Source: Hoeflea marina
GTDB lineage: Bacteria; Pseudomonadota; Alphaproteobacteria; Rhizobiales; Rhizobiaceae
Length of the DNA: 64,000 nucleotides
NCBI RefSeq assembly: GCF_003182275.1
Contig: NZ_QGTR01000003.1
Location: 62,001 to 126,000 of the forward strand
Reading direction: 5' to 3'
Shown here: positions 13,360-45,779 of the stretch, piece after piece
Layout: each line of letters opens with the position of its first letter
Numbering within the stretch: position 1 is the first letter of the stretch
Program-made: the position numbers and the translations under genes
The notes under the pieces: model-generated
What the model was told of the DNA's origin: nothing
Seen by the model: the letters and a program-made list of their open reading frames with translations, nothing else
Databases searched by the model: none

Positions 13360-13364
13360 CGCAC

Positions 13365-13462
13365 AGCACGTGAATTCGGATCGACGCGACGTGATTGAGC
13401 TCATTGCAATCATGCAGGTCGTGATCCAAAAACCGCTGCACATGTTCGGTGCGACACGCATT
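13365..13462 (+). repeat. RIME1-like repeat, degenerate copy 2
   Basis: This copy lies just after the deacetylase-like gene stop. It aligns with the same element at 21.0 and 43.8 kb: CATGCAGGTCGTGATCC, AACCGCTGCACATGTTCGG and GCGACACGCATTGG correspond to the second palindrome. The first palindrome is eroded. Several mismatches in the arms suggest an old copy. Orientation is the same as the other three. Confidence 0.65.
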
Positions 13463-13488
13463 GGACCGCTCCGGACAAGTCCCGGAGC

Positions 13489-13755
13489 CTATCTGCGGAA
13501 ATTGAGCAACCGGAGGATGAGGAAGACCGGAACCACGACGCAGGCACCGAGCGCCAGATAGACGCCGAAGCGGCCAAGCGCCGCAAAGCCGGTTTCCCAG
13601 ATGTTCACCAGCGTGTCGCGGATCATGTAGAGGACATCGAGCGGATACCAGTGGAAGGCGCTCATGATGACGCCGACGACAAAGGAGATGACCAGGAGCT
13701 TGAGGATGGTGCGCCCGAGAGTGTCGCCCAGAAACCGTGTCAATCCGCCGCTCAT
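13489..13755 (-). CDS. small two-helix inner-membrane protein (DUF6460-like)
   Basis: An 88-residue protein with two hydrophobic helices, ILKLLVISFVVGVIMSAF and YLALGACVVVPVFLILRLL, separated by WYPLDVLYMIRDTLVNIWETGFAALGRFG. It resembles the small integral-membrane family that Rhizobiales genomes carry beside other genes (DUF6460); the function is unknown. The ATG at 13755 has GGAG six bases upstream. It follows the DNA ligase gene on the same strand with a 59-base gap, so it may be co-transcribed with the repair genes by read-through, but nothing in the protein suggests a repair role. Confidence 0.75.
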   Translation of the reverse strand: MSGGLTRFLGDTLGRTILKLLVISFVVGVIMSAFHWYPLDVLYMIRDTLVNIWETGFAALGRFGVYLALGACVVVPVFLILRLLNFRR

Positions 13756-13814
13756 GTCCGTCTCCCGAAGTTGCAGCCTCCACATAGGCATGGACAGGGC
13801 TTCGGGCAAGCCCG

Positions 13815-15437
13815 TCACTGCGCGCCGGCGATCATCTGCTCCAGCGTTTCCAGCCGGTCGGCTTCGGCAGGCGGCTTGTCCCAGCGCAGACGGTTGATGC
13901 GCGGGAAGCGCATGGCGACGCCGGACTTGTGCCGCGTCGAGCGCGCGATGCCTTCGAAGGCGACCTCGAAGACCAGGCCGGTCACCGCATTGGCGCGCAC
14001 CGAGCGGACCGGGCCGAAGCGCTCGATGGTGTGGTCGCGGACATATTTGTCGATGAGCTTGAGCTCCTCGTCGGTGAAGCCGAAATAGGCCTTGCCGACG
14101 GGAACCAGTTCTCCCTCTTCCGGTTCGCCGCGCCAGACGCCGAAGGTGTAGTCCGAATAATAGCCCGAACGCTTGCCGTGGCCACGCTGGGCATACATCA
14201 GCACCGCGTCGACGAGATGAGGGTCGCGCTTCCACTTGAACCATTCGCCGCGCGGGCGGCCCGCGACATAGGGCGCGGTGCGGCGCTTGATCATCACGCC
14301 CTCGATCACCGGCTCGGGCAGTGCCAAGCGCAATTGCGCCAGTTCGTCCCAGCTGTCGAAGGCAAGCATCGGCGAGCAGTCGAAACGGTGCGGGTCGAGC
14401 GGCGCGATGAACGCTTCCAGGCGGGCGCGGCGCTCGGCGAAGGGCAGCCCCCTGAGATCCTCTGAGCCGTCCTGCAGCAGGTCGTAGGCGCGCAGGAAGG
14501 CGGGATGGTCGCGCACCATCCTGCCGGTCACCGTCTTGCGGTTGAGACGCTGCTGCAGATCGGAGAAGGTGCCGATGGAGACCTCCCCCTCCGCCAGCCG
14601 CGCCACAAGCAGTTCGCCGTCGACAGTGCCGTCGAAGGCGAGATGATCGACCAGATCGGGAAAGGCTGCGGATATGTCGTCGCCGGTGCGGGTGTAGAGC
14701 CTTCGCACGCCGCGTTCGGCGGTGGCCTGGACGCGGATGCCGTCCCACTTCCACTCGGCGACGAAGTCCGCCGGATCCAGCCTGGTGAAATCCGCATCCT
14801 CGATGGCGTGCGACAGCATCACCGGCCGGAACGGCGCGGCAGCCGCGTTGACCGGCTTGTCGGCCACGCCCTCGAGCCAGTCGAACAGGGTCCGGTAGGG
14901 CGGCTCCAGCCCATGCCAGAGCTCCTCGATCTCGGTCACGGCCACACCGCCGAAATCGGCCAGCGCCTGCTTGGCGAGCCGGGCCGAGAGCCCGATGCGG
15001 AAGCCGCCGGTGACGAGCTTGAGCAAGGCATAGCGGGACGAGGCGTCGAGCTGGTCGAGCCAGCCTGCGATCAGCTGCGGACCCTCGCGACGGGAGGCGC
15101 CGGCGAGCGCCTCGACGATCCCGGTCAGCGAGGGCGCATCGTTTCGACCCGCGTGCGGACCGGCGGGCACCGGCCATGCGAGCGCGATGGTCTCGGCGAG
15201 ATCGCCGACATAATCGTAGGACAGTTTGAACAGCTCCGCATCCATGCGGCCGGCGATGAGTTCACGCAGCATGGCCGGTTTGACCGAGGCAATGTCGAGG
15301 CCGTTGGTCAGCGCCGCGAGTGCATAGCCGCGCTCGGGATCGGGCACGGCGCGGAAATAGCCGCTCAGCAGCTTGAGCTTGCCGTTGCGGCCCGGCGTGA
15401 GCACCAGCGTATCGATGAGGTCGGCAAAGCGGCGCAT
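13815..15437 (-). CDS. ATP-dependent DNA ligase of the Lhr-associated damage-response cluster
   Basis: A 540-residue ATP-dependent ligase with an N-terminal helical domain (about 1-200), an adenylation domain and an OB-fold domain. The nucleotidyl lysine is Lys230 in EWKWDGIRVQA. RLYTRTGDDISAAFPDL, GTVDGELLV, EGVMIKRRTAPYVAGRPRGEWFKWKR and the C-terminal FKW-type motifs are present. The family (LigB/LigC-like) is known from a conserved cluster with an Lhr helicase, an exonuclease and a phosphoesterase, and is annotated as a cisplatin damage-response ligase. The start codon follows the exonuclease stop directly (TAG then ATG), so the two are coupled. It would seal nicks in a repair pathway, inferred from context. 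Confidence 0.92.
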   Translation of the reverse strand: MRRFADLIDTLVLTPGRNGKLKLLSGYFRAVPDPERGYALAALTNGLDIASVKPAMLRELIAGRMDAELFKLSYDYVGDLAETIALAWPVPAGPHAGRNDAPSLTGIVEALAGASRREGPQLIAGWLDQLDASSRYALLKLVTGGFRIGLSARLAKQALADFGGVAVTEIEELWHGLEPPYRTLFDWLEGVADKPVNAAAAPFRPVMLSHAIEDADFTRLDPADFVAEWKWDGIRVQATAERGVRRLYTRTGDDISAAFPDLVDHLAFDGTVDGELLVARLAEGEVSIGTFSDLQQRLNRKTVTGRMVRDHPAFLRAYDLLQDGSEDLRGLPFAERRARLEAFIAPLDPHRFDCSPMLAFDSWDELAQLRLALPEPVIEGVMIKRRTAPYVAGRPRGEWFKWKRDPHLVDAVLMYAQRGHGKRSGYYSDYTFGVWRGEPEEGELVPVGKAYFGFTDEELKLIDKYVRDHTIERFGPVRSVRANAVTGLVFEVAFEGIARSTRHKSGVAMRFPRINRLRWDKPPAEADRLETLEQMIAGAQ

Positions 15438-16448
15438 CTATTCCGCCTCGTCTTCGTAGCCGACCATGTGCAGCGGCCGGGCCCGTGTGCCGTTCATCTC
15501 GCACCAGCGCACCAATGCCTCCTCGCGGCCATGGGTGACCCAGACCTCTTCGGGCGCGATGGCGGTGATCGTGGCGGTCAGTTCGTCCCAGTCCGCATGG
15601 TCGGAAATCACCAGCGGCAGTTCCACGCCACGCTGGCGTGCGCGCTGGCGCACCATCATCCAGCCCGAGGCAAACGAGATCAGCGGATCGGGGAAGCGCC
15701 GCGCCCATTTGTCGCCGAAGGCCGAGGGCGGGCCGAGCACGACGGCGCCGGCGAAATCGCCCTTGCCGCCGGTCTCGACGGTGGCCGGACGCAGCTCGCC
15801 CAGCGCAATGCCCTGGCTTTCGTAATAGTCGCACAGGCGCTTGAGCGCGCCGTGGATGTAGATCGGCTGGTCGTAGCCGGCGTCGCGCAGCAGCCGGATG
15901 ACGCGCTGCGCCTTGCCCAGCGAATAGGCGCCGACCAGGTGGGCGCGGTCGGGATTGGCGCCCACCGAACCCAGCAGCCGGGAAATCTCGTCCCCGGCAT
16001 CGGGATGGCGGAAGACCGGCAGGCCGAAAGTCGCCTCGGTGATGAAGACATCGCAGTCGACCGGCTCGAAGCTGGCGCAGGTGGGATCGGGACGCGGCTT
16101 GTAGTCGCCGGAGGCGACGATGCGCAATCCGCCACGACCGACGGCGATCTGCGCGGAACCGAGCACGTGGCCGGCGGGGTGAAACCGCACCGCGACGCCG
16201 TCGATTATCAGGGTCTCGCCCAGGGCCGCCACCTGGGTCGAGCCGGCATGGTCCTCGCCGTAGCGGATGGCCATGATGTCGAGTGTTTCGGCGGTGGCCA
16301 GCACGTGACCGTGGCCGGCTCGGGCGTGATCGGCATGGCCGTGGGTGATCAGCGCGCGCTCCACCGGCCGCACGGGGTCGATGTGGAATCCGCCCGGAGG
16401 GCAATAGAGTCCCTCGGGACGCGGGCAAAGGAGCTCATCGGGGCGCAT
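15438..16448 (-). CDS. ligase-associated metallo-beta-lactamase-fold exonuclease
   Basis: A 336-residue metallo-beta-lactamase/beta-CASP-like nuclease, related to SNM1 and CPSF73-type enzymes. The metal-binding HxHxDH motif is HGHADH at residues 36-41; later ligands lie in HPAGHVLGSAQI and ASGDYKPRPDPTC, and a C-terminal ISDHADWDEL block is the expected distal histidine. The known family is a 3' end-processing exonuclease encoded next to the ATP-dependent ligase. A longer reading to 16556 exists, but the family start MRPDELLCPRPEGLYCPPGG is at 16448, which also lies within the gap to the divergent methyltransferase gene. The stop is adjacent to the ligase start. Confidence 0.9.
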   Translation of the reverse strand: MRPDELLCPRPEGLYCPPGGFHIDPVRPVERALITHGHADHARAGHGHVLATAETLDIMAIRYGEDHAGSTQVAALGETLIIDGVAVRFHPAGHVLGSAQIAVGRGGLRIVASGDYKPRPDPTCASFEPVDCDVFITEATFGLPVFRHPDAGDEISRLLGSVGANPDRAHLVGAYSLGKAQRVIRLLRDAGYDQPIYIHGALKRLCDYYESQGIALGELRPATVETGGKGDFAGAVVLGPPSAFGDKWARRFPDPLISFASGWMMVRQRARQRGVELPLVISDHADWDELTATITAIAPEEVWVTHGREEALVRWCEMNGTRARPLHMVGYEDEAE

Positions 16449-16558
16449 GGCGTGAAGGTAGGGCCGGCGATGGCTTTGGAAAAGGGCCTTCACAACAGGC
16501 TTGTGTTTATTTGTGGCAAGCGCCATAGCCAGCGGACAGTCCTCCCATCTGGTCATCC

Positions 16559-17566
16559 ATGTCCCCTCCGCAACTCACATCCGGCGACGTGCTCGCCGAC
16601 CGGCGCGCCGGTTATGCCCGCATGCTGCTGGATTCGGGCGACGCGGCGGCGGCAGCGGACCTGCAACGCCAGGCGCTGGATCTGGCGCCCGGCTGGGCCG
16701 CGGGCTGGCACGAGCTCGGCCTCTACCGGGAAGCCGCCAAGGATCTCGCCGGCGCCGCCGAAGCCTGGCGGCAGGTGCTGGTGATCGAACCGGCAGACAT
16801 GTTCGGCGCCGGGATGAAGCTCGCCCTGGTGGGACATGCCGCGATCCCCGCGGTGCCGCCGAGCGAATATGTGGCGCAGTTGTTTGACGACTACTCAGAC
16901 CGTTTCGACACCGCGCTGGTCGAAGCGCTGCACTACGTCGTGCCCGAACGGCTGACGGCGATGATCGCGGACGCGGCCGGCCCCGGCGCCCGCTTTGCCA
17001 AGGTGATCGATCTTGGTTGCGGCACCGGGCTGTTCGGCGAGCGGATCCGCGGCGTCACCTCCTGGCTCGAAGGCTACGACCTGTCCCAGGGCATGCTGGC
17101 GAAAGCCGCCGAAAAGGGCGTCTACGACGAACTCGGCCAGGCTGACATCCTCTACGGCATTGAAGCCGCGCGGCAGCCGGGCGCCAGCCAGGCCAACCTG
17201 GTGGCGGCAGCCGACGTGTTCGCCTATTTCGGCGATCTCGACCCGGTGATGGCGGTGGCAGCTGGCCTGACCGTGGACCAGGGCCTCATGGCCCTTTCGC
17301 TGGAGGCCGGACCAGACGACTGCGACTGGGTGCTGCAGACCTCGCTGCGCTACTGCCACGGCGAGACCTATCTCCGCCGCCTGCTTGACAGCCACGGATT
17401 CACCCTGGTGTCGCTGTCGCGCGAGCCTATCCGCCGCGACGGCTCCAACCAGATTACCGGGCTGCTGGTCGTGGCGCGCAAGCGCAGCCCCGCCGCGGTC
17501 AAGCCGCCGGAGACCGCTGTCGCGCTCAGCGGCGATGCCATCCCGGTTCCCTCCGCTCCCAACTGA
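16559..17566 (+). CDS. TPR-containing class I SAM-dependent methyltransferase
   Basis: A 335-residue cytoplasmic protein. Residues 10-85 form one or two tetratricopeptide-like repeats (DLQRQALDLAPGWAAGWHELGLYREAAKDLAGAAEAWRQ is the recognisable block). The C-terminal two thirds are a Rossmann methyltransferase with the SAM motif VIDLGCGTGLFGERI and a following acidic residue in EGYDLSQGM. Substrate unknown; relatives are often annotated as trans-aconitate or ubiquinone-type methyltransferases on weak grounds. It starts 110 bases from the divergent exonuclease gene and ends 59 bases before the Lhr helicase, placing it inside the repair cluster. That could be coincidence or a functional link. 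Confidence 0.82.
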   Translation: MSPPQLTSGDVLADRRAGYARMLLDSGDAAAAADLQRQALDLAPGWAAGWHELGLYREAAKDLAGAAEAWRQVLVIEPADMFGAGMKLALVGHAAIPAVPPSEYVAQLFDDYSDRFDTALVEALHYVVPERLTAMIADAAGPGARFAKVIDLGCGTGLFGERIRGVTSWLEGYDLSQGMLAKAAEKGVYDELGQADILYGIEAARQPGASQANLVAAADVFAYFGDLDPVMAVAAGLTVDQGLMALSLEAGPDDCDWVLQTSLRYCHGETYLRRLLDSHGFTLVSLSREPIRRDGSNQITGLLVVARKRSPAAVKPPETAVALSGDAIPVPSAPN

Positions 17567-17625
17567 GCGGCACGGCGACTGCAATTGGCATTGGACAGCG
17601 CAATCGCCGGCGCTAGATTTACGAC

Positions 17626-20151
17626 GTGAAAGCCGAATCCCCTCCCACTCCGGATGCCCGGGACCCTGCCCTGCCCGAGCCCTTCGCCGGCTGGTTCGCC
17701 GCGCGAGGCTGGCAACCGCGGGCCCATCAACTCGACCTGCTGGCCAGCACCCGGGCGGGCCGGTCCATGCTGCTGATCGCGCCAACCGGCGCCGGCAAGA
17801 CGCTGGCCGGCTTCCTGCCGTCGCTGACCGAGCTTGCCGCCCGCGGCAGGCCAAAGCCGGGGTCCGCAGGACAGGGCCTGCACACGCTTTACATCTCGCC
17901 GCTCAAGGCGCTGGCCGTCGACATCGAGCGCAACCTCGCCCGGCCGGTGGACGAGATGGCCCTGCCGGTGCGGATCGAGACGCGCACGGGCGACACGCCG
18001 CAATCCAAGCGGGCGCGCCAGCGGCTCGATCCCCCGGACATTCTGCTGACCACACCCGAGCAGGTCTCGCTGCTGATCGCCAATGGCCAGGCGGAAGGTT
18101 TCTTCAAAAATCTGCGCTTCGTCATCCTCGACGAACTGCACTCGCTGACCGCGTCCAAGCGCGGCCACCTGCTGGCGCTGGCGCTGGCTCGATTGAGGGC
18201 GCTGGCACCCGATCTGGTCACCATCGGCCTGTCGGCAACCGTCGCCGACCCCGAGGAACTGCAGCGCTGGCTGGTGGCGCAAAGACCGGGAACGACGGCT
18301 GAGGCGGGACGGATCACGGTGGAGGGCGGCGCCAGGCCCGAGATCAGCATTCTCGAGACCAGCGAGCGCATCCCGTGGTCCGGGCACTCGGCGCGCTACG
18401 CGGTGCCGGACATCTATGAGGTGATCAAGCGACACCGGACGACGCTGCTCTTCGTCAACACCCGCAGCCAGGCCGAGATGCTGTTCCAGGAGCTTTGGCG
18501 GATCAACGACGACAGCCTGCCGATCGCATTGCATCACGGCTCGCTCGACGCCACCCAGCGCCGCCGTGTCGAGGCGGCCATGGGGCGCAACGAACTGCGC
18601 GCGGTCGTGGCGACCTCGACGCTCGATCTGGGCATCGACTGGGGCGACATCGACCTGGTCATCCATGTCGGCGCGCCCAAGGGCGCCAGCCGCCTGGCGC
18701 AGCGGATCGGGCGCGCCAACCACCGCATGGACGAGCCCAGCCGGGCAATCCTGGTGCCCGCCAACCGCTTCGAGGTCATGGAATGCCAGGCTGCCATCGA
18801 CGCCAACTATGTCGGCGCCCAGGACACGCCGTCGGGCGGCACCGGCGCGCTCGACGTGCTGGCACAGCATGTGCTCGGCATGGCGGCGGCGGGCCCCTTC
18901 TCCTCCGACGGGCTGTTCGCCGAGGTCACCAGCGCAGAGCCCTACGCGACCTTGTCGCGCGAGCGTTTCGACAAGGTGGTCGATTTCGTCGCCACGGGCG
19001 GCTATGCGCTGAAAAGCTATGACCGCTATGCCCGCATCCGCAAGCGCGACGACGGGCTGTGGCGGATCTCCAATCCGCAGGTGGCGCAGCAGTACCGGCT
19101 CAACATCGGCACCATCGTCGAGGCGCCGATGCTCAATGTCCGCATGGCCAGCCGCAGGAACGGCACCGTCGGCCGCGGCGGCCCAGTGCTGGGCAAGGTC
19201 GAGGAGTACTTTCTCGAAACCCTGGCGCAGGGCGACACCTTCCTGTTCTCCGGCAAGATCCTGCGCTTCGAGGGCATCCGCGAGAACGAATGCCTGGTCA
19301 GCCGCGCCTGGGACCAGGATCCGAAGGTGCCGGCCTATGCCGGCGGCAAATTCCCGCTGTCGACCTACCTCGCCGAAGGCGTGCGCGGCATGCTCGCCGA
19401 TCCGGCACGCTGGGGCGCCCTGCCCGACCAGGTCTCCGACTGGCTCAGGCTGCAGCGCGACGCCTCGCTGCTGCCCGGCCACGGCGAGCTGCTGATCGAG
19501 ACATTTCCGCGCGGCAGCCGGCACTATCTCGTCGCCTATCCCTTCGAAGGCCGGCTGGCGCACCAGACGCTCGGCATGCTGCTCACGCGTCGGCTCGAAC
19601 GCGCCGGCGCCCGGCCGCTCGGCTTCGTTGCCACCGACTATTCGCTGGCTGTGTGGGGGCTCGAGGATCTCGGCGCGATGATCGGCTCCGGACGCCTCGC
19701 TCTCGCCGACCTGTTCGACGAGGACATGCTGGGCGACGACCTCGATGCGTGGCTCGCCGAATCATGGCTCCTGAAGCGCACATTCCGCAATTGCGCGGTG
19801 ATCTCCGGCCTGATCGAGCGCCGGCACCCGGGCAAGGAAAAGTCCGGACGCCAGGTGACGGTGTCGGCAGACCTGATCTACGACGTGCTCAGGAGCCACG
19901 AACCCGACCACATCCTGCTGCAGGCCACCGCCGCGGATGCCGCATCCGGACTTTTGGACATTCAGCGGCTCGGCGCTATGCTCGCCCGAATCAAGGGCCA
20001 TCTCGTGCACCGCCGGCTCGACCGGATCTCGCCCCTGGCGGTGCCGATCATGCTGGAGATCGGGCGAGAACCGGTCAGCGGCCAGGCCCATGACGACATT
20101 CTGGCGGAAGCCGCAGACGATCTGGTTGCCGAGGCGATGGGACAAGCGTGA
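17626..20151 (+). CDS. lhr: Lhr-type DEXH-box DNA helicase (ligase-associated)
   Basis: An 841-residue superfamily 2 helicase of the Lhr-Core type, an ATP-dependent 3'-to-5' DNA translocase. Walker A is APTGAGKT with Lys58, and the Walker B box is DELH at residues 169-172. Motif III GLSATV, motif IV LLFVNTRSQAEM and motif VI QRIGRANHRMDEPSR follow, then the Lhr-specific winged-helix and beta-barrel region. The length fits Lhr-Core rather than full-length Lhr (about 1500). The start is a GTG at 17626; no nearby ATG fits. Its stop overlaps the GTG start of the next gene. It belongs with the ligase, exonuclease and PdeM as a DNA-damage response set. Confidence 0.92.
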   Translation: MKAESPPTPDARDPALPEPFAGWFAARGWQPRAHQLDLLASTRAGRSMLLIAPTGAGKTLAGFLPSLTELAARGRPKPGSAGQGLHTLYISPLKALAVDIERNLARPVDEMALPVRIETRTGDTPQSKRARQRLDPPDILLTTPEQVSLLIANGQAEGFFKNLRFVILDELHSLTASKRGHLLALALARLRALAPDLVTIGLSATVADPEELQRWLVAQRPGTTAEAGRITVEGGARPEISILETSERIPWSGHSARYAVPDIYEVIKRHRTTLLFVNTRSQAEMLFQELWRINDDSLPIALHHGSLDATQRRRVEAAMGRNELRAVVATSTLDLGIDWGDIDLVIHVGAPKGASRLAQRIGRANHRMDEPSRAILVPANRFEVMECQAAIDANYVGAQDTPSGGTGALDVLAQHVLGMAAAGPFSSDGLFAEVTSAEPYATLSRERFDKVVDFVATGGYALKSYDRYARIRKRDDGLWRISNPQVAQQYRLNIGTIVEAPMLNVRMASRRNGTVGRGGPVLGKVEEYFLETLAQGDTFLFSGKILRFEGIRENECLVSRAWDQDPKVPAYAGGKFPLSTYLAEGVRGMLADPARWGALPDQVSDWLRLQRDASLLPGHGELLIETFPRGSRHYLVAYPFEGRLAHQTLGMLLTRRLERAGARPLGFVATDYSLAVWGLEDLGAMIGSGRLALADLFDEDMLGDDLDAWLAESWLLKRTFRNCAVISGLIERRHPGKEKSGRQVTVSADLIYDVLRSHEPDHILLQATAADAASGLLDIQRLGAMLARIKGHLVHRRLDRISPLAVPIMLEIGREPVSGQAHDDILAEAADDLVAEAMGQA

Positions 20152-37590: not shown

Positions 37591-38472
37591 TCAGTAGAGC
37601 CCGTTCGGGAACCAGCGCAGATAGAGCTCCGCGAACCGGCCGCTGCGATTGAGCGCAGCCAGCGCGTGATCGAAGGCGTCGGCGAGCGGCTGATTGTCCG
37701 GCGCCACCGCGATGGCCAGACCTTCGCCGAGATAGTCCACTGACAGAAAGGGGCCGTCGAAAAACCGGCAGCAACCTTCTGCGCCGGCGCTCGAGAGCCA
37801 GAACGACAGCTGCACGCCATCGCCATAGACGGCGTCCACGCCGCCCTTGCGCAGCGCATCGAACATCCAATCGGCGCGGTCAAACGTGACGGGCCGTATA
37901 TCCGGAAACCAGTTCCGCAACATGGCCTCGTGCGCCGAATGGGCGAGCACGCCGACCCGACGGGCCGCAAGGGCGTCGGCGTCGGTGCCGCCGATGGCGG
38001 CGTCGCCGCGGATGACGAAGCGGGCAGGAAGCGCCAGGTAAGGCCGGGTGAAGCGATACCTGTCGCGGTTCTCCGCGGTGACCGCAATGCCGGCAATGAG
38101 CGCCTCGCCCTGAGCGTTGCCGAGCGCATTGCCGAGTTCGGACCAGGGCAGCGCCTGAATCTGGCATTTGTCCAGCGCCGACAGTTCATCGCAGATGGCA
38201 CGGGCGAGATCGACATGAAAGCCCGAGAGCCGCCCGGTGCGGTCGAGAAAGCTGAAAGGCGGAAAATCCACACTGGTCAGAAATCGGATGCGGGATCGCG
38301 ACGACAGGTCCGGGACGGCGATGCGCTCGCGCGGGTCCATATAATTGGGAACGGCGACCTCGGCGGCAGATCCGAGCATTGGAAGCAGCGCGAAAATCAC
38401 ACCAAAAATGCACGCTAGACGCGAAAATCCCTTAGTTTCGAGGGGTGTCAAACGATGCGCTTTAGCTACCAT
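37591..38472 (-). CDS. periplasmic amino-acid-type substrate-binding protein
   Basis: A 293-residue protein with a signal peptide (FSRLACIFGVIFALLPMLGSAAE, cleavage before AEVAVP) and a type II periplasmic binding fold, seen in FPPFSFLDRTGRLSGFHVDLARAICDEL and YRFTRPYLALPARFVIR. Such proteins feed ABC importers for polar amino acids, but no permease or ATPase gene lies nearby, so it may instead serve a sensor or an importer encoded elsewhere. ATG 38472 is chosen because it sits just before the signal peptide; ATG 38517 is possible but would overlap the divergent gene. No good ribosome site is visible for either. Confidence 0.8.
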   Translation of the reverse strand: MVAKAHRLTPLETKGFSRLACIFGVIFALLPMLGSAAEVAVPNYMDPRERIAVPDLSSRSRIRFLTSVDFPPFSFLDRTGRLSGFHVDLARAICDELSALDKCQIQALPWSELGNALGNAQGEALIAGIAVTAENRDRYRFTRPYLALPARFVIRGDAAIGGTDADALAARRVGVLAHSAHEAMLRNWFPDIRPVTFDRADWMFDALRKGGVDAVYGDGVQLSFWLSSAGAEGCCRFFDGPFLSVDYLGEGLAIAVAPDNQPLADAFDHALAALNRSGRFAELYLRWFPNGLY

Positions 38473-38515
38473 TGAAACGACGTCCGGTTGTCCACACGGT
38501 GTGTGTAGCAGAGTC

Positions 38516-39346
38516 ATGGAACCAAACAACACTCTTCCACCACCGGAGGATCCGCCGGTTCGGCTGCCGGCCACGAGTGCGCATGGTCAGGGACATTTCA
38601 CGCCGCATCCAGCGGGGACCGTGGACCTCCGCGCCGAAGCCGAATTCTTCGCCCGCTGCGGAATCGGCAAGCCCGACGTCAAGGCCGCGTGGGCGGACGC
38701 GGTCAGGAACGCCACCAGCATCGAGCGCGAGCTGATCGCGGCGCGGCGACTGGACCCCGACATCTATTACCGCTTCCTCGCCCAGCACCTGGGCCTGACA
38801 TTCGCCGACCGCATCGACCCGACACAGATGATTCGTCCGGAGCGCGACGAGATCCCGCTGCGGCGGCCCGGACCGGTGAAGATCCGGTTGCATGACCGGG
38901 TCCTGACCGTTCTGGCGCCGGAGGCCCGCGATCTGCCGCGATGGCGACACCGCCTCGCCCGCGACCCCGGACTCCGCGAGGCGCTGGTTGTGGCCGCGCC
39001 GCAGACAATTCGAGACGCTGCCTGGGCCGCCGGCGCATCCGAGCGGGTGCGGGCCACGACGCGGTCGCTGGCCGAAACCGCGGCCGCATCGAGCGCTCGC
39101 CAGGTGCTGACCGGCCGGCAGGGATTTGCCTTCGGCTGCCTGCTGGGGGTCATGGTCTGGCTCGCGGTCACCTGGCCGGCCCTGACGCTGGACGGAGTTC
39201 ATCTCACCTTTTCGAGCCTGTTTTTCGGCAACATCCTGTTGCGACTTGCCGCCGCGTCCGGCCGTCGATCCCCCTGTCGGTGCCGTCGGCGAACGTCCCG
39301 GAACCGGACTGCCGGTCTATACAATCCTGGTCGCCCTGCGCGATGA
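38516..39346 (+). CDS. N-terminal part of a frameshifted family 2 glycosyltransferase
   Basis: This reading frame encodes about 240 residues that match the N-terminal part of large bacterial glycosyltransferases: a GspE-N/MshEN-like helical domain (FFARCGIGKPDVKAAWADAVRN, then RRLDPDIYYRFLAQHLGLTF) and a pair of hydrophobic helices near residues 205-240 (GFAFGCLLGVMVWLAVTWPALTL). From about 39247 the frame continues into a basic, low-sense tail (SGRRSPCRCRRRTSRNRT), while the catalytic domain continues in the +1 frame. A single extra base near 39248-39255 (GCCGCCGCG) would explain this. Start ATG 38516 has a weak ribosome site. Confidence 0.65.
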   Translation: MEPNNTLPPPEDPPVRLPATSAHGQGHFTPHPAGTVDLRAEAEFFARCGIGKPDVKAAWADAVRNATSIERELIAARRLDPDIYYRFLAQHLGLTFADRIDPTQMIRPERDEIPLRRPGPVKIRLHDRVLTVLAPEARDLPRWRHRLARDPGLREALVVAAPQTIRDAAWAAGASERVRATTRSLAETAAASSARQVLTGRQGFAFGCLLGVMVWLAVTWPALTLDGVHLTFSSLFFGNILLRLAAASGRRSPCRCRRRTSRNRTAGLYNPGRPAR

Positions 39347-40457
39347 GGCGGCGATGGCGAGCCAGCTGGTTGCGGCCATGGCGCGGCTTCACTGGCCCAG
39401 GAGCCTGCTCGACATCAAGTTCATCTGCGAGGCCGGGGACAGCGCCACGATCGCCGCGCTTGCAGCCTGCAGACCGGGCGCGGAATGCGAGGTGGTCATC
39501 GTGCCGCCGCTCCACCCGATGACGAAACCGAAGGCGCTGCAATATGCACTGCAGGGCGCGCGTGGCTCCCTCGTGGCCGTCTACGACGCCGAAGACGTAC
39601 CCCATCCGGCACAGTTGCTGGAAGCGCATGCGGCCTTCGCGCTCGGCGGTGGACGCCTGGCATGCGTCCAGGCGCCGCTGGCGATCGCCAACAGCGGCCG
39701 GAACTGGATCACGACGCTCTTCGCGCTCGAATATGCCGGCCTGTTCCGGATGCTGATCCCGTTTCTTGACCGCCACAATCTGCCGATCCTGCTTGGCGGC
39801 ACCTCGAACCATTTCCGGCGCGAGGCCCTGATCGAGGTGGGCGGCTGGGATCCCTACAATGTCACGGAGGACGCGGACCTCGGCATGCGGCTTTATCGTC
39901 GCGGCTTCCGGACCAAGGCGATCTGGCGCGCGACGGTGGAAAGTGCGCCGCAGACGCTGGCGGTGTGGATCCGCCAGCGCAGCCGATGGTACAAAGGCTG
40001 GACGCAGACATGGCTGGTGCTGATGCGCCAGCCGATCAGACTTGCCCGGGAACTGGGGCCGGTCGGCTTCATCACGTTCCAGTTGCTGCTCGCCGGCATG
40101 CTGGTCTCGGCGGCCATACATCCGATGCTGGCGCTGTTCCTGCTGGCCAGCCTCTATCTGTCATGGCAGGGTGCAGTGCCTCCGGGCTGGGACCTGCATG
40201 CCGGCTTGTTCGCGATCGACCTGTTCAATGTCACGGCAAGCTATCTGGTCTTCCTCTGCCTCGGATGGCGGGGCATGGCGCCGGCCGAGAAGGCGCGCAT
40301 CCCGATACGCGGGATCTTCCTGCTGCCTGCCTACTGGATCGCCATGTCGGTGGCGGCATGGCGCGCGGTCATCCAGTTGCCCTTCAAACCGCACCTCTGG
40401 GAGAAGACGCCGCACCCGGCCCAGGGACGCAGACGGCCACCCCATCCGGCGCCCTGA
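39246..40457 (+). CDS. family 2 glycosyltransferase, catalytic part (frameshifted relative to its N-terminus)
   Basis: About 403 residues with a GT-A fold catalytic domain. VYTILVALRDEA starts the sugar-nucleotide region, DAEDVPHPAQL carries the metal-binding acidic motif, TEDADLGMRLYRRG supplies the catalytic acid, and QRSRWYKGWTQTW is the QxxRW motif of processive enzymes. Three to four transmembrane helices follow. The protein probably synthesises an extracellular or cell-surface beta-glycan, product unknown. The only start in this frame (TTG 39246) has no ribosome site and lies where the upstream frame loses sense, so this is best read as the second half of one gene split by a frameshift. 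Confirming whether it is real needs read data. Confidence 0.7.
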   Translation: MPPRPAVDPPVGAVGERPGTGLPVYTILVALRDEAAMASQLVAAMARLHWPRSLLDIKFICEAGDSATIAALAACRPGAECEVVIVPPLHPMTKPKALQYALQGARGSLVAVYDAEDVPHPAQLLEAHAAFALGGGRLACVQAPLAIANSGRNWITTLFALEYAGLFRMLIPFLDRHNLPILLGGTSNHFRREALIEVGGWDPYNVTEDADLGMRLYRRGFRTKAIWRATVESAPQTLAVWIRQRSRWYKGWTQTWLVLMRQPIRLARELGPVGFITFQLLLAGMLVSAAIHPMLALFLLASLYLSWQGAVPPGWDLHAGLFAIDLFNVTASYLVFLCLGWRGMAPAEKARIPIRGIFLLPAYWIAMSVAAWRAVIQLPFKPHLWEKTPHPAQGRRRPPHPAP

Positions 40458-40563: not shown

Positions 40564-40592
40564 GCGCAGATTGAACTCTGTTGGAGTATCCC

Positions 40593-40898
40593 ATGACGGT
40601 CCCCCCATCCCGAAACGGCGTGACGCACTCGACACGCCTTGCCCTGTCGCCACAGTCGACGCTCCAGCCGCTCGGCGACACCGAAGGCGGCGTGGTGCTC
40701 AAGCTGGATTCGGGAGAGCTGTTCACCGTCAATGACACGTCCCTGGCATTCCTGCAGGAGCTTGATGGCACGGCCAAGATCGACGATGTCGCCGGGCGGC
40801 TTGCCGAGATCTTCGACGTCGATGCGGCGACCCTGACCAGCGACCTTATCGAGATTGCGGACGATCTGATTGATGAATCTCTAATATACATTGTCTGA
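40593..40898 (+). CDS. PqqD-like RiPP recognition protein (lasso B1-like)
   Basis: A 101-residue protein of the PqqD/RiPP recognition element family, which binds the leader part of a precursor peptide and presents it to modifying enzymes. VVLKLDSGELFTVNDTSLAFLQELDGTAKIDDVAGRLAEIFDVD is the characteristic winged-helix core: a small beta sheet with an Asn/Asp-rich turn followed by helices. In lasso-peptide clusters this protein (B1) works with the B2 protease, whose gene follows here with a one-base TGATG overlap. GGAG is seven to eight bases before ATG 40593. First gene of a tight four-gene operon; no matching precursor is obvious. Confidence 0.82.
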   Translation: MTVPPSRNGVTHSTRLALSPQSTLQPLGDTEGGVVLKLDSGELFTVNDTSLAFLQELDGTAKIDDVAGRLAEIFDVDAATLTSDLIEIADDLIDESLIYIV

Positions 40899-41365
40899 TG
40901 TCTCCGTTTGCACCCATCGGCCTGCCCTTCCCCTGGGAGCTATGGATTGCCGCCAGGCTGTTGCCGCTCTTTGTCCGGAACAGGCCACTGCACGACATCC
41001 TGAAGCTCGCCAATCCGACCGGGTCATCGCCGGGCCGTGACCCCATGCCCGCGGATGCCATCGTTCGGGCTGTCAAGAGGGCTGCGGCGCGGCCGTGGCT
41101 GATGCGCCACCGCCGCTGCCTCAGGGAGGGTCTGCTGGGGTTCCATTACCTCTCGCGGGAAGGCTATCGGCCACTGCTGCATTTCGGCATCATCCCGGAA
41201 AGCCTGGCCAGCGCGCGACCGAAGGCCCATTGCTGGATCAGCCTCGACGGAACCATCATCCTCAACCCGCCGGAAGTCCCGATGCTCGATCTTTTCACCT
41301 ACGACGGCAGCCGTTCGGCGCCCGCCACCCGGGCGCATGGAAGACTGGAACCGATGAATGGCTGA
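40898..41365 (+). CDS. lasso-peptide biosynthesis B2-like protease
   Basis: A 155-residue transglutaminase-fold protein of the lasso B2 (McjB C-terminal) family, which removes the leader peptide before ring closure. The catalytic cysteine is Cys74 in RHRRCLREG and the histidine is His111 in AHCWISLDG. In McjB the third residue is an aspartate twelve residues after the histidine; here that position is Asn123 in IILNPPE, while the only nearby Asp is Asp117. This is unusual and may reduce or change activity. It has no N-terminal extension, so it relies on the separate PqqD-like partner. It overlaps the next gene by eight bases. Confidence 0.83.
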   Translation: MSPFAPIGLPFPWELWIAARLLPLFVRNRPLHDILKLANPTGSSPGRDPMPADAIVRAVKRAAARPWLMRHRRCLREGLLGFHYLSREGYRPLLHFGIIPESLASARPKAHCWISLDGTIILNPPEVPMLDLFTYDGSRSAPATRAHGRLEPMNG

Positions 41366-42365
41366 CCCGGTGCTGTGTCTCAATTTCTTCGGCGCCCGAT
41401 TGAGCGTGGCGGCCGATTCGCCAAGATGGCTCGACCGGATGCGGCAGGCCTTTGCGGCCTTCGTCGGCGACGAACCGCGACCGGGCGATTTTTTCCTCAC
41501 CATCTCGGACTCTGCCGGCCAGGGCGAACCGCCGGATCTGGCCCTGACATGGGAGGGAATCCTGCCCGACGGGCGTCCGGGCAGGGTCTGGGAATCAGCC
41601 TTCACGGCCGTTCTGGCCGTGGAGGAGTCTGTCGTGGTCAAGATCGAGCACACCGAAGGGTCGGCGACCGCCCATGTCATGGCCGGAGGCGACGCCGCGC
41701 TGTTCAGTTCGGCCCTGATGTTCATCCTGGACGCGGCGCTTCTGGCGGCCGGACAGCAGCTCGTGCACGGCGCCTGCCTGGTGGACCAGCGTTCGCAGCG
41801 CGCGGCGCTGATCTGCGTTCCCTCCGGCGGCGGCAAGACGACCACCTCGATGGCGATGGCGCGCGACGGGTTCTCGCTGATGACCGACGACGCCAGCGTG
41901 CTGATCCCGAACGCCGGGAGGCCGCTGGTCTGGGGACTGCCGCGACCGCTGAAGGTGCACCGCTATACGGCGGACCTGCTGTCCTGGATCGGGCCGCTGC
42001 CCGACACGTGGGATGAGAACGGCGAGCAGGGGATCCCGCTGGCCAGGATCGCCGACCGGATCAGCGTTATGGCGCCGCAACCGGTCGAACTCGGTGCCGT
42101 CTTTCTGCTCGGGCCGCGCTCTTCCGGCGATCATGCGGTGACGCGATTGCCGAAGCCCGAGATGCTGATTGCCATTGCGCATGACAATGTCGCCTTTCGA
42201 GCTGCCGGCATGACGCCGCGAGCCCTGCGGCGGTTCGGGGAGCTTGGCGGCATGGTCGCCGACGTACCAACCTTCCAGATTTCCGCCGGGCGCGAGCTGG
42301 CCTCGCTGCCGGCGATGGTCGCGGCGGCGATGAACGAGGACGTCCTGGCGTCGCGGATCCCGTGA
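41358..42365 (+). CDS. HPr-kinase-like protein of lasso-peptide clusters
   Basis: A 335-residue protein. Residues 1-130 are an N-terminal domain of the HPr-kinase-associated type. A Walker A loop PSGGGKTT with Lys160 follows, and TDDASVL plus the GLPRPLKVHR region complete a P-loop kinase-like core. Homologues in lasso clusters (for example the paeninodin kinase) phosphorylate the C-terminal serine of the precursor. No precursor is identified here, so this role is by family and context only. It overlaps the B2 gene by eight bases and the next gene by four (GTGA), so the operon is translated as a unit. Confidence 0.78.
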   Translation: MADPVLCLNFFGARLSVAADSPRWLDRMRQAFAAFVGDEPRPGDFFLTISDSAGQGEPPDLALTWEGILPDGRPGRVWESAFTAVLAVEESVVVKIEHTEGSATAHVMAGGDAALFSSALMFILDAALLAAGQQLVHGACLVDQRSQRAALICVPSGGGKTTTSMAMARDGFSLMTDDASVLIPNAGRPLVWGLPRPLKVHRYTADLLSWIGPLPDTWDENGEQGIPLARIADRISVMAPQPVELGAVFLLGPRSSGDHAVTRLPKPEMLIAIAHDNVAFRAAGMTPRALRRFGELGGMVADVPTFQISAGRELASLPAMVAAAMNEDVLASRIP

Positions 42366-43405
42366 GCGAAAGCCGCATCAGCGGATGGCTGGCACGCCTC
42401 TCCGATCCCGGCGGCCTCAACCGCCGCTCCTCGCCGCCCGCCTTCGATGCCGGCGACGAGGCGCAGTGGCTGCGCTTGCTGGACGAGGCGGGAAGCCACA
42501 ATGTCCGCCCCGCCGTGGTCCGGAATCTCGGCGTCGAATTGCGCGAGTCCCCCGGCTCCTTCATCCGGGGGACGGACGCGGAGACGGCAGGGCCCATCAG
42601 GGCCCTCATGGCCAGCGCCAACGACCTGCGGCTGCAGGATGTCTCGCGCGCGGTGCTGCTGGCCTCGGTGGCGCGGCAGATCCTGCAGGCAATCGACCGC
42701 GCCGGGCTGCCCGCGACCCTGGTCAAAGGCGTGGATTTCGCCGAGAAGGCCTATGGCGGCCTGCACATGCGCAGCTTCTCGGACATCGACCTGCTGGTCC
42801 GGCCGGAGGCCGAGGCGGATCTTGGCGAGGTTCTTCGGGCACTCGGGCTCGAGGCGCATGAGCCGCCGGGCAAACGCATCGACTACACCGAGCGGCAGTG
42901 GACCCGGTCACACCAGCATGGCGGCTTGCTGCTGGTCGAGGTCCACACCGACGTCGTCCACGCGCCCGAACTCCGTGCCCGCCAGACGCTGACCTATGAT
43001 CTTTACGCCGATCCCGCGGCGGGCGGCATCACGCCTGCCGGCCGGATGGTGCTGGCGGGCCTGCATGGCGCAACGTCGCATCTCTTCGGCCGGCTGCAGT
43101 ATGTGGTGGACGGCTTGATGATCGCGCGCATGGGCGTGGATGCGGACGAGCTTCGCGTCCGCGCGGAGCGGTCCGGCGCCTTGCTGCCCGTGGCCACGAT
43201 GCTGCGCCTCGCCGCGGAACTCTATGGCTGCGGGTCGAGCCGCGGCCTGCTCGACGCGCTCGGACCGGTCGCCTGGGCAAGGCTGGAGCGCCGGCTGATC
43301 AGCGCACCCATGGTGATGTCTGCCAAGAGCGTGCATCGCTGGCGGCTGTTGCCGCAGCGCTATCTCTATCGCCGGCTGCTGAGGATGACAGGCCTGCCCT
43401 CCTGA
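42362..43405 (+). CDS. nucleotidyltransferase-fold protein of a lasso-like cluster
   Basis: A 347-residue protein of the Nucleotidyltransferase (uncharacterised, NTP_transf) family often found in lasso-peptide operons. The probable catalytic region is LVKGVDFAEKAYGGLHMRSFSDIDLLV, whose DID could bind metal; a GS motif typical of the superfamily is not clear. The rest is helical with several His and Cys. The role in RiPP modification is not known; transfer of a nucleotide or activation of a carboxylate has been suggested for the group. It starts with GTG 42362 overlapping the kinase stop and ends 484 bases before the next, convergent gene. Confidence 0.75.
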   Translation: MSESRISGWLARLSDPGGLNRRSSPPAFDAGDEAQWLRLLDEAGSHNVRPAVVRNLGVELRESPGSFIRGTDAETAGPIRALMASANDLRLQDVSRAVLLASVARQILQAIDRAGLPATLVKGVDFAEKAYGGLHMRSFSDIDLLVRPEAEADLGEVLRALGLEAHEPPGKRIDYTERQWTRSHQHGGLLLVEVHTDVVHAPELRARQTLTYDLYADPAAGGITPAGRMVLAGLHGATSHLFGRLQYVVDGLMIARMGVDADELRVRAERSGALLPVATMLRLAAELYGCGSSRGLLDALGPVAWARLERRLISAPMVMSAKSVHRWRLLPQRYLYRRLLRMTGLPS

Positions 43406-43789: not shown

Positions 43790-43893
43790 AAAGCACATCG
43801 CGTGAACTCAGATTCACGTGATGTGCTTTCGCTCTTTGATTTTGCATGTCGTGGTCCCGAAACCGCTGCACAGTTTCGGGCGAGATGCATTAG
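43790..43893 (+). repeat. RIME1-like repeat, complete copy 4
   Basis: The first palindrome has arms AAAGCACATCGCGTGAA (43790-43806) and TTCACGTGATGTGCTTT (43813-43829), which differ at one pair. The second runs from TGCATGTCG (43843) to CGAGATGCA (43889), with inner arms CCCGAAA and TTTCGGG. About 80-90 percent alike to the 21.0 kb copy by eye. The TTA at 43890-43892 is the stop codon (TAA) of the minus-strand gene that follows. Confidence 0.85.
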
Positions 43894-45779
43894 CGCCTGG
43901 GCATCCCCGCCGGCCTGAGATGGCGGCGAAGGGCTGCAATGCGAAAGATCGCATTGGGGGCGCCATAGCCGCGATAGCCGCGACGCTCGACAATCTCGAA
44001 GAACAGTCCCTCGCCGAATGTCGGGCTGTAGAGCTGGAAATACTCTCCATGCTCGTCCCGGTCATAGAGGATGTTGCGCGACTTGAGCCGCTCGGTGAGT
44101 TCGGGGTCGAGACCGAAGCGGGCTTCGACATCGTCGTAATAGTTCGGCGTTATCGCCAGCGTCACGAAGCCGTTGCGGCGCAACGCGTCGGCGGTGGCGA
44201 AGATGTCGCCGGTGGAAAACGCCAGATGCTGGATGCCCGATCCGGAGGTTTCGGTGATGAAATGGCCCGCCAGCGTGTTGCGGTTCTCGGCCCCGTTCAT
44301 GGTCACCCGCAGGGTGCCTTCGGCGTTCTCGACGACCTGGCTGCGCACGAGTCCGGCCGGATCGACGATGTCGACCATTGGCGTCTTGTGGGCCGCGAGC
44401 GTCGAGGTGTAGAACAGCAGCCAAGTGAGCATCTCGTCATATTTGACCGTCTGAGCGACATGATCGATGGCGATCAGGCCCGCCGGGGCGGTGTCGGCAA
44501 CGGCTGCATGCGGAATGAATTCCACGTCCCAGATGCGGGCGAGCCCGGCGGTGTCGTCGAGAAAATAGATCACGCCGCCGCCGACGCCGCGGATGGCCGG
44601 CATGGTGATCTCGTCCGGACCCACCGCCTGCTCGAAGCACTCGGCGCCCAGCGCCAGTGCGCGCTCGAACGCCGCCCTGGCATCGTCCACCTTCAAGCCC
44701 AGCGCATAGGCGGTGGCGCCGTGGACCAGATATGAGGAAGCGGCAAATCCCTTGTCCTCTGTGTTGAGCACCAGCCTGATGCCGCCCTGGCGATAGAGCG
44801 TCACGCGCTTGGACCTGTGCTCGGCAGCCCGCTCGAAACCCATGGCGGAAAACAGCGCCGCCAGTTGCCCGCCTTCTTCCTCGTCGGCGGAAAACTCGAT
44901 GAAGGCGACGCTCTCCACCCGGGCGCGGTCCGGCATGGCCGGAACCTGGATGGCGATGTCGGGCTCCAGCCGGGAGACCCGATCCATCAGATAGACGAGC
45001 GAGCGGTGACCATCGACCGATATGGCCGAAGGCGAACCGCCGCGGAACTGGTCATTGAAGATCTCCAGCGACAGGTAGCCGTCATAGCCCGTGGCCGCCA
45101 CTGCGCGCATGAAATCGATCACAGCCAGATCACCCTCGCCGGGCATGTTGCGGAAATGCCGGCTCCAGTAGAGCAGGTCCATCTCGATCTGCGGCGCGTC
45201 CGCCAGCTGGACGATGAAGATCTTGTCGCCGGGTATCGAGCGGATCGAATTGACGTCGATCCTGCGGGCGAGCGTGTGGAAGCTGTCCAGGATCAAACCG
45301 ATATTGGCGTGGTCGGCGCGGCGGACGACCTCCCAGGCGTCGCGATGATCATGAATGTGGCGGCCCCAGGCTAGCGCCTCGTAGCCGACCCTGAGGTTCC
45401 GCCTTGCCGCGCGCTCGCCCAGTTCCAGGAAGTCCGCCGCGATTCTGTCGATGCCGCCGAGCGCCACCGGCGAGACATTCGAGCAGATCAGCATCAGGTC
45501 GGTGCCCAGCTCCTGCATGAGGTCGAACTTGCGCTCGGCGCGGTCGAAATTGCGGCCGCGCAGCGGCTCCGGCATGCCCTCGAAATCGCGGAACGGCTGG
45601 AACAACGTGACCTCAAGCCCGTGATCGCGCACCATCCGGCCGACCTCGGCCGGCGAGCCATCGAAGGCGAGAAAGTCGTTCTCGAAGATCTCCACGCCGG
45701 CAAAGCCCGCCGCGGCGATGGCCGCCAGCTTCTGCTCGAGATCGCCGCTGATCGATACCGTGGCTATGGACGTCTTCAT
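43890..45779 (-). CDS. quiC: 3-dehydroshikimate dehydratase-like protein (sugar isomerase/HPPD-domain fusion)
   Basis: A 629-residue fusion. The N-terminal half (about 1-270) is a xylose-isomerase-like TIM barrel with metal-binding residues in YEALAWGRHIHDH, LDSFHTLARR and the SLEIFND block. The C-terminal half is a vicinal-oxygen-chelate, 4-hydroxyphenylpyruvate-dioxygenase-like domain (AIDHVAQTV, HLAFSTGDIF, EYFQLYSPTFGEGLFFEIVER). This layout is that of QuiC/QsuB dehydratases, which turn 3-dehydroshikimate into protocatechuate during quinate and shikimate breakdown. It overlaps the oxidoreductase gene as ATGA and belongs to an operon with a TctABC importer. The exact substrate is inference. 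Confidence 0.85.
   Translation of the reverse strand: MKTSIATVSISGDLEQKLAAIAAAGFAGVEIFENDFLAFDGSPAEVGRMVRDHGLEVTLFQPFRDFEGMPEPLRGRNFDRAERKFDLMQELGTDLMLICSNVSPVALGGIDRIAADFLELGERAARRNLRVGYEALAWGRHIHDHRDAWEVVRRADHANIGLILDSFHTLARRIDVNSIRSIPGDKIFIVQLADAPQIEMDLLYWSRHFRNMPGEGDLAVIDFMRAVAATGYDGYLSLEIFNDQFRGGSPSAISVDGHRSLVYLMDRVSRLEPDIAIQVPAMPDRARVESVAFIEFSADEEEGGQLAALFSAMGFERAAEHRSKRVTLYRQGGIRLVLNTEDKGFAASSYLVHGATAYALGLKVDDARAAFERALALGAECFEQAVGPDEITMPAIRGVGGGVIYFLDDTAGLARIWDVEFIPHAAVADTAPAGLIAIDHVAQTVKYDEMLTWLLFYTSTLAAHKTPMVDIVDPAGLVRSQVVENAEGTLRVTMNGAENRNTLAGHFITETSGSGIQHLAFSTGDIFATADALRRNGFVTLAITPNYYDDVEARFGLDPELTERLKSRNILYDRDEHGEYFQLYSPTFGEGLFFEIVERRGYRGYGAPNAIFRIAALRRHLRPAGMPRR

Follow-up and report, generated by a model that had tools for sequence, protein, structure and literature searches.

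Introduction

Phosphorylated lasso peptides and the LPP (linear polyphosphorylated peptide) system of Bacillota are the closest described relatives of the operon reported here, a quartet of genes in Hoeflea marina that encodes a PqqD-like protein, a B2 leader peptidase, an HPr-kinase-like protein and a nucleotidyltransferase (NTase). The quartet lies in a stretch of 64,000 nucleotides (assembly GCF_003182275.1, contig NZ_QGTR01000003.1, positions 62,001 to 126,000 of the forward strand), referred to below as the window. The Bsf cluster of Bradymonas has the same set of B1, B2, kinase and NTase genes, and its kinase phosphorylates Ser3 of the core; it differs in having a cyclase (BsfC) and a transporter (BsfD), and its core carries Gly1 and Asp8 (PMC10368454). 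Lasso peptides of the paeninodin and pseudomycoidin type also have an HPr-kinase-like tailoring kinase, accompanied in pseudomycoidin by a nucleotidyltransferase, but they are threaded, are phosphorylated on a C-terminal Ser and have a cyclase (PMC7533575, PMC8498205). The LPP system, published in 2026 and described as restricted to Bacillota, shares with the quartet a discrete recognition element (RRE) of the kind found in ribosomally synthesized and post-translationally modified peptide (RiPP) pathways, an HprK-like kinase, an NTP transferase, a Tyr-xx-Pro leader motif, an early Ser in the core and the absence of a cyclase; it also shares an occasional siting near a true lasso cluster, which is often seen in Bacillota (PMC13381572).

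The results presented below indicate, with a probability of roughly 0.7, that the quartet matures linear, lasso-derived RiPPs for which no cyclase is needed, and that this one shared unit works in trans on several scattered precursors. A literature search whose coverage mostly excluded subscription papers and preprints returned no description of this Alphaproteobacterial system.

The operon and its conservation

The operon consists of four genes.

40593 to 40898, + strand: PqqD-like discrete RRE (B1), ATG start; PF05402, 45.7 bits (cut-off 23.4)
40898 to 41365, + strand: B2 transglutaminase-like leader peptidase; NF033537, 48.4 bits (cut-off 33), and PF13471, 39.2 bits (cut-off 26)
41358 to 42365, + strand: kinase (K) of the HPr-kinase/PEPCK fold; alignment match to HPr kinase 1jb1, model matching PEPCKs
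42362 to 43405, + strand: NTP_transf_5 nucleotidyltransferase (N); PF14907, 78.5 bits (cut-off 31.2)

An earlier note on this DNA had described four overlapping genes of these kinds. The open reading frames (ORFs), the families and all three junctions agreed with that description: TGATG between PqqD and B2 (1-base overlap), an 8-base overlap between B2 and the kinase, and GTGA between the kinase and the NTase (4-base overlap). An in-frame TTG is present at 40581, 5' of the PqqD ATG (40593). The PqqD and B2 proteins were the sole matches in the genome to PF05402 and to PF13471 (Transglut_core3), respectively. PqqD, which would be expected to bind the leader, scored 30.5 bits against the lasso PqqD model NF033530, under the cut-off of 70. 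Residues Cys74 and His111 of B2, which we take to be catalytic, were invariant in an alignment of 14 sequences; comparison of a B2 alignment with the PDB by sequence gave no match.

The kinase had no Pfam match. Its alignment matched HPr kinase 1jb1 in the PDB (E 4.4e-5), and PEPCKs were the best structural matches of its model (mean predicted local distance difference test score, pLDDT, 92.3), as would be expected of the fold that HPr kinase and PEPCK have in common. His137, G159, K160, Asp177 and Asp178 were invariant in 16 sequences, and the same His, P-loop and Asp-Asp elements make up the motif of BsfK (PMC10368454). Membership of the HPr-rel-A system (TIGR04352) was rejected, since the kinase scored 24 bits against a cut-off of 200. 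In the NTase, Asp141 and Asp143 were invariant in 19 sequences; its model (pLDDT 90.5) gave weak PDB matches to MenT1 (E 2.6e-3), ANT(2'') (1.0e-2) and LnuA, none at E ≤ 0.001. A second NTP_transf_5 match occurs in the same genome, in a 546-aa open frame (G000:C1:855387-855968, L151; G, C and L numbers denote genomes, contigs and loci).

The kinase was searched for in 199 genomes of the family and B2 in 297 genomes of the order. Kinase matches were found in 11 of the 199, ten at E<1e-20 and the eleventh (G071) weak, and B2 matches in 14 of the 297, one of them weak. The two other searched genomes of the genus yielded neither the kinase nor precursors. Across the class, 32 other genomes out of 385 gave kinase matches at E ≤ 1e-8, each of them distant (best 4.3e-17), and there was no further precursor match at E ≤ 0.001, an absence that is weak because at most five and at most 20 candidates were scored per genome in these searches.

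Nineteen relative loci, excluding that of H. marina, were fetched, and a collection scan supplied a second set, the best 80 out of 99 confirmed loci. Because every locus had been found through its kinase or B2, one quartet gene is necessarily there, and some genomes occur in both sets. All four genes were found at 19/19 fetched loci and 79/80 collection loci (98/99 together), the exception, L116, being without a recognised NTase. This completeness argues that the quartet is not a chance assembly. Sixty-three of the best 80 loci carry the label Mesorhizobium, a genus placed in the order Hyphomicrobiales, and the other labels include Aquibium, Ahrensia, Ancylobacter, Chelativorans, Prosthecomicrobium, Hoeflea, Kaistia and a Rhodospirillaceae bin.

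Precursor genes

At locus L029 a 2 kb gap holds ten short minus-strand ORFs with a repeated start, MKKxYxKPxLxKREKLSxVTA, and scans of other loci gave the same type of leader followed by short and varied cores. The leader consensus, YxKPxLxKRxxLxAVTA, is of the lasso type, and none of ten precursors compared with NCBIfam reached a lasso precursor cut-off. As stated in the earlier note, no precursor lies near the quartet in the window: the leader hidden Markov model (HMM) gave nothing above 7 bits there (best listed 5.8). The idea of a precursor hidden beside the operon was rejected, since neither the six frames of the two gaps nor the HMM scans of the window revealed one.

An alignment of 23 precursors (A3), none from H. 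marina, was then used to search its genome and gave nine matches at E ≤ 0.026, five at E ≤ 1.4e-4 and the best at 6.5e-9. At least nine precursor genes, with ATG starts and products of 30-33 residues, are present on three other contigs; the exact ORF of one encodes MKREYLKPTLVKSAVTLQAVTAQVVISGPNENA. The precursor at 273 kb of C1, with the core QVVISGPNENA, shares 73% identity with a precursor encoded shortly before pqqD in G038, the genome whose kinase is closest to that of the window (50%). The label orphan does not suit the quartet, which looks like a central operon that works in trans. The prochlorosins provide a parallel, in which one enzyme set serves many precursors encoded away from the enzymes; their chemistry is that of lanthipeptides and their enzymes are unrelated.

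A further alignment (A4, 36 precursor rows) was searched in the 199 family genomes used for the kinase. Precursors (E ≤ 0.001) were found in 10/10 genomes with a kinase at E<1e-20 and in 0/189 others; six of these ten genomes had contributed rows to A4, and G073, G085, G155 and G164 had contributed none, but other Mesorhizobium had. The weak-kinase genome G071 had no precursor match, and two matches in kinase-less genomes (E 0.0028 and 0.0054) were treated as noise. Several genomes had precursors at multiple distant places.

Possible partners were also found. On contig C2 of H. marina, two precursors flank genes for a ligase, a GNAT-family protein and a carrier protein. The ligase and GNAT genes occurred at 7/19 and 5/80 loci, and a formyltransferase-like gene at 3/19 and 13/80. 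In several species the NTase gene directly adjoins those for the ligase, GNAT and carrier protein, and at L046 the genes for PqqD, B2, kinase, ligase, GNAT, carrier and NTase all run in one direction. GNAT matches (E ≤ 1e-20) were found in 6/199 family genomes, all within the ten kinase genomes. The suggestion in the earlier note that partners lie elsewhere was right for the precursors and for the ligase, GNAT and carrier trio; it failed for a cyclase, none of which is encoded in the genome.

Two other ideas about the scattered genes were rejected. A shared stress promoter was considered because trehalose-type genes lie near two of the H. marina precursors (one by Pfam, one by eye), and the EcfG consensus was present in 0/10 upstream regions (nine precursors and the operon). 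A common neighbour was sought at 25 precursor loci, five from H. marina and 20 from other genomes; the only recurring ORFs (matching at least two other loci) were ABC-type ATPases, an AMP-ligase-like ORF at L146, a 631-aa ORF at L182 and the beta-barrel genes of one genome.

Core sequences and proposed pathway

One hundred distinct precursors were compared. One match without the Tyr motif, one (L047) with a tail of more than 70 residues from the Tyr, and the scattered precursors of L182-L201 were left out; because related sequences were included, the counts are not independent. The spacing from Tyr to the assigned cut was 17 residues in 74/100 and 18 in 13/100, although it was 18 in 12/12 precursors of H. 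marina and G038. The YxxPxL motif of the Bsf leader is similarly placed, at -17/-14/-12 (PMC10368454). Residue -2 was Thr in 56/100 and Val in 39/100. Cores were short, with a median of 10 residues, 12 or fewer in 78/100 and more than 20 in 4/100. Every core had a Ser or Thr within its first seven residues (100/100, compared with a mean of 77 and a maximum of 88 in 1000 shuffles), and a [ST]G pair was present in 57/100 (mean 25, maximum 36 in 1000 shuffles). Asp or Glu occurred at position 7-9 in 13/100, so that most cores could not close a lasso ring; with a core length of at least 13, the count was 3/100.

Some cores (at L149, 11402-11497, and at L188, L190 and L191) have two Cys around a Ser, among them APCISDSCA in H. 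marina and ACTPSTCPV and ACPISQCGD in G073. Such two-Cys cores are a possible disulphide subfamily.

In the proposed pathway, short precursors would be made from the genes on the three other contigs, and PqqD, by analogy with lasso RREs, would bind the YxKPxL motif of the leader. The HPr-kinase-like enzyme would phosphorylate a Ser or Thr near the start of the core, often within the enriched S/T-G. More speculatively, the NTase could add a group to this phosphate, possibly together with the ligase, carrier and GNAT trio, which may acylate the peptide. B2 would cut after V-T-A at the end of the leader. With no lasso cyclase encoded in the genome and no acceptor residue in most cores, no ring would be closed, threading would not occur and the products would stay linear. 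Of the options raised in the earlier note, a peptide that is cleaved and phosphorylated but not threaded is thus the best supported, with the chemistry itself predicted; a very similar logic without a cyclase has been described in Bacillota, in a paper of 2026 (PMC13381572).

Several observations weigh against this reading. Binding, phosphorylation, cleavage, further modification and linearity are all deduced from sequence, and the cut sites that delimit the 100 cores were assigned by rule. The association of precursors with the kinase is partly circular, given the six genomes that supplied rows to A4; the search scored a limited number of candidates per genome, and the rows of the GNAT alignment (A5) came from three of the six GNAT genomes. 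At only 13/19 and 41/80 loci does a precursor (≥14 bits) adjoin the quartet. No export gene was identified. There is no S/T-G in 43/100 cores and the position of the Ser or Thr is variable; 11/100 have Thr but no Ser, and LppK did not phosphorylate a Ser-to-Thr variant (PMC13381572). Deletion of lppN caused no detectable change (PMC13381572). Asp or Glu is present at position 7-9 in 3/9 cores of H. marina itself, these three being only 8-11 residues long. Finally, in five Mesorhizobium-genus genomes a cyclase that passes the NF033535 cut-off is encoded 9-29 kb away from the quartet. In Ancylobacter G273, two proteins encoded on contigs other than that of the quartet match the lasso cyclase family best but stay below its cut-off (215.9 and 281.9 bits, cut-off 525); cross-talk with a lasso cyclase may occur in these genomes.

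A more far-reaching proposal, which is put forward tentatively and falls short of an even chance, is that the system is a separate RiPP class, in which one operon serves as many as 14 precursors in a genome, many at scattered sites, and yields short linear peptides with a phosphate-linked group on an early Ser or Thr and, in some species, an acyl group from the trio, the trio being the missing partner of the NTase. LppN has no known function in the published account, and its discoverers suggested that a gene beyond the core cluster encodes a partner (PMC13381572); the adjoining NTase, ligase, GNAT and carrier genes give that question a concrete test. If the trans-acting, linear reading is true, cyclase-free lasso-derived phosphopeptides occur not just in Bacillota but also, with another protease, in Mesorhizobium and further Alphaproteobacteria, and the products would be a little-known kind of modified linear peptide. 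Gene-cluster mining would miss the precursors, because they sit far from the enzymes.

Alternative explanations

It is unlikely that larger or surface proteins, and not small peptides, are the substrates of the operon. The leader is fused to a Peptidase_S74-like domain at L047 (7657-8055, - strand; Pfam 34.7 bits) and, by eye, at L182 (4790-5131, - strand), each of three scattered precursors in G131 (L185, L186 and L187) adjoins an outer-membrane beta-barrel gene (PF13505), and a glycosyltransferase ORF lies upstream of the operon in the window. These observations would fit such targets, but they are set against the shortness of the cores, only four of which exceed 20 residues; the L047 tail stands outside the 100.

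About equally improbable is that the system is simply the LPP family in another phylum. The logic is the same (RRE, HprK-like kinase and NTP transferase without a cyclase, an early core Ser, which in LPP is polyphosphorylated, occasional co-location with lasso clusters), but LPP, said to be restricted to Bacillota, has a SipW-like SpI peptidase, where the quartet has B2 (no genome-wide search for SpI was made). The LPP leader, YxxPxVLxHQxIxFETxxS, contains a VLxHQxIxFET part that is absent from YxKPxLxKRxxLxAVTA, and the core of LppA has 45 residues as against a median of 10 here (PMC13381572). Scattered precursors and the ligase/GNAT/carrier and formyltransferase-like partners further distinguish the Alphaproteobacterial system. 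An LPP cluster also includes an MsbA-like transporter; none was recognised at the quartet loci compared, where most neighbours are without annotation. Because some defining features of LPP were not found, the system was provisionally treated as a variant of the LPP kind and not as a member, a placement based on genes and leader.

Less probable still is a lasso operon with a cyclase gene that lies at another site or that the assembly failed to capture. B1, B2, the leader motif, the kinase and the NTase are those of phosphorylated lasso clusters: the RRE and B2 were found, as were the YxxPxL spacing and, relative to the rule-assigned cut, Thr at -2. No macrolactam cyclase was found in the genome, and few cores combine Asp or Glu at position 7-9 with a threadable tail. 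The assembly (5.26 Mb) is 96.6% complete in 20 contigs, which leaves some room for a missing gene. The earlier note had seen no McjC-like cyclase near the quartet, and this was confirmed and extended, with none in the window and no protein over the NF033535 cut-off in the whole genome. Its strong PF00733 proteins are other enzymes, an N-acetylglutaminylglutamine amidotransferase (TIGR03104, 1008.6 bits) and an asparagine synthase (TIGR01536, 378.5 bits), both far below the NF033535 cut-off, and two weak matches, read by eye, are presumably MnmA and ArgG. A lasso cluster with a remote cyclase was therefore rejected for this genome. In 6/20 quartet genomes (G131, G164, G327, G356, G437 and G474), all PF00733 matches were below 40 bits; the 20 genomes hold 30 PF00733 proteins above 60 bits, of which 17 were scanned against NCBIfam, with L219 and L220 outside the scan. 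The scarcity of Asp and Glu at core position 7-9 also argues against this explanation.

The nearby Mesorhizobium cyclases favour a remote cyclase at first sight, but at the two loci read (G073 and G331) the cyclase is surrounded by its own lasso-like precursor (...ETITQGGGGNTATDVSFPAHTPIGDLTFS), kinase-like and NTase-like genes, and weak B2-like matches (kinase and NTase by Pfam in G073). The G073 cluster is as follows.

L207, about 13364 to 19041: lasso cluster near the quartet of G073, with a cyclase, kinase-like and NTase genes and a GGGGNTATD... precursor

These five genomes, with an own precursor in the two that were read, indicate that lasso and quartet systems sit near each other.

That the quartet is a degenerate remnant of a decayed lasso cluster, as the earlier note had allowed, is very improbable: its spread is sporadic in the family and the kinase was not detected in the genus's two other searched genomes, but the gene overlaps are tight, all four genes are retained at 98/99 loci, the residues expected in the active sites do not vary among the aligned relatives and kinase-bearing genomes have several precursor copies.

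Neighbouring genes

Upstream of the operon, on the + strand at 38345-40457 of the window, two overlapping ORFs (333 and 403 aa) lie in different frames. By eye they resemble the N-terminal and catalytic parts of one membrane glycosyltransferase, with a frame change at about 39246-39346; only the second (403 aa) ORF has a Pfam glycosyltransferase match over the cut-off. On the - strand at 43890-45779, a single ORF combines a xylose-isomerase-like TIM barrel with HPPD/glyoxalase domains.

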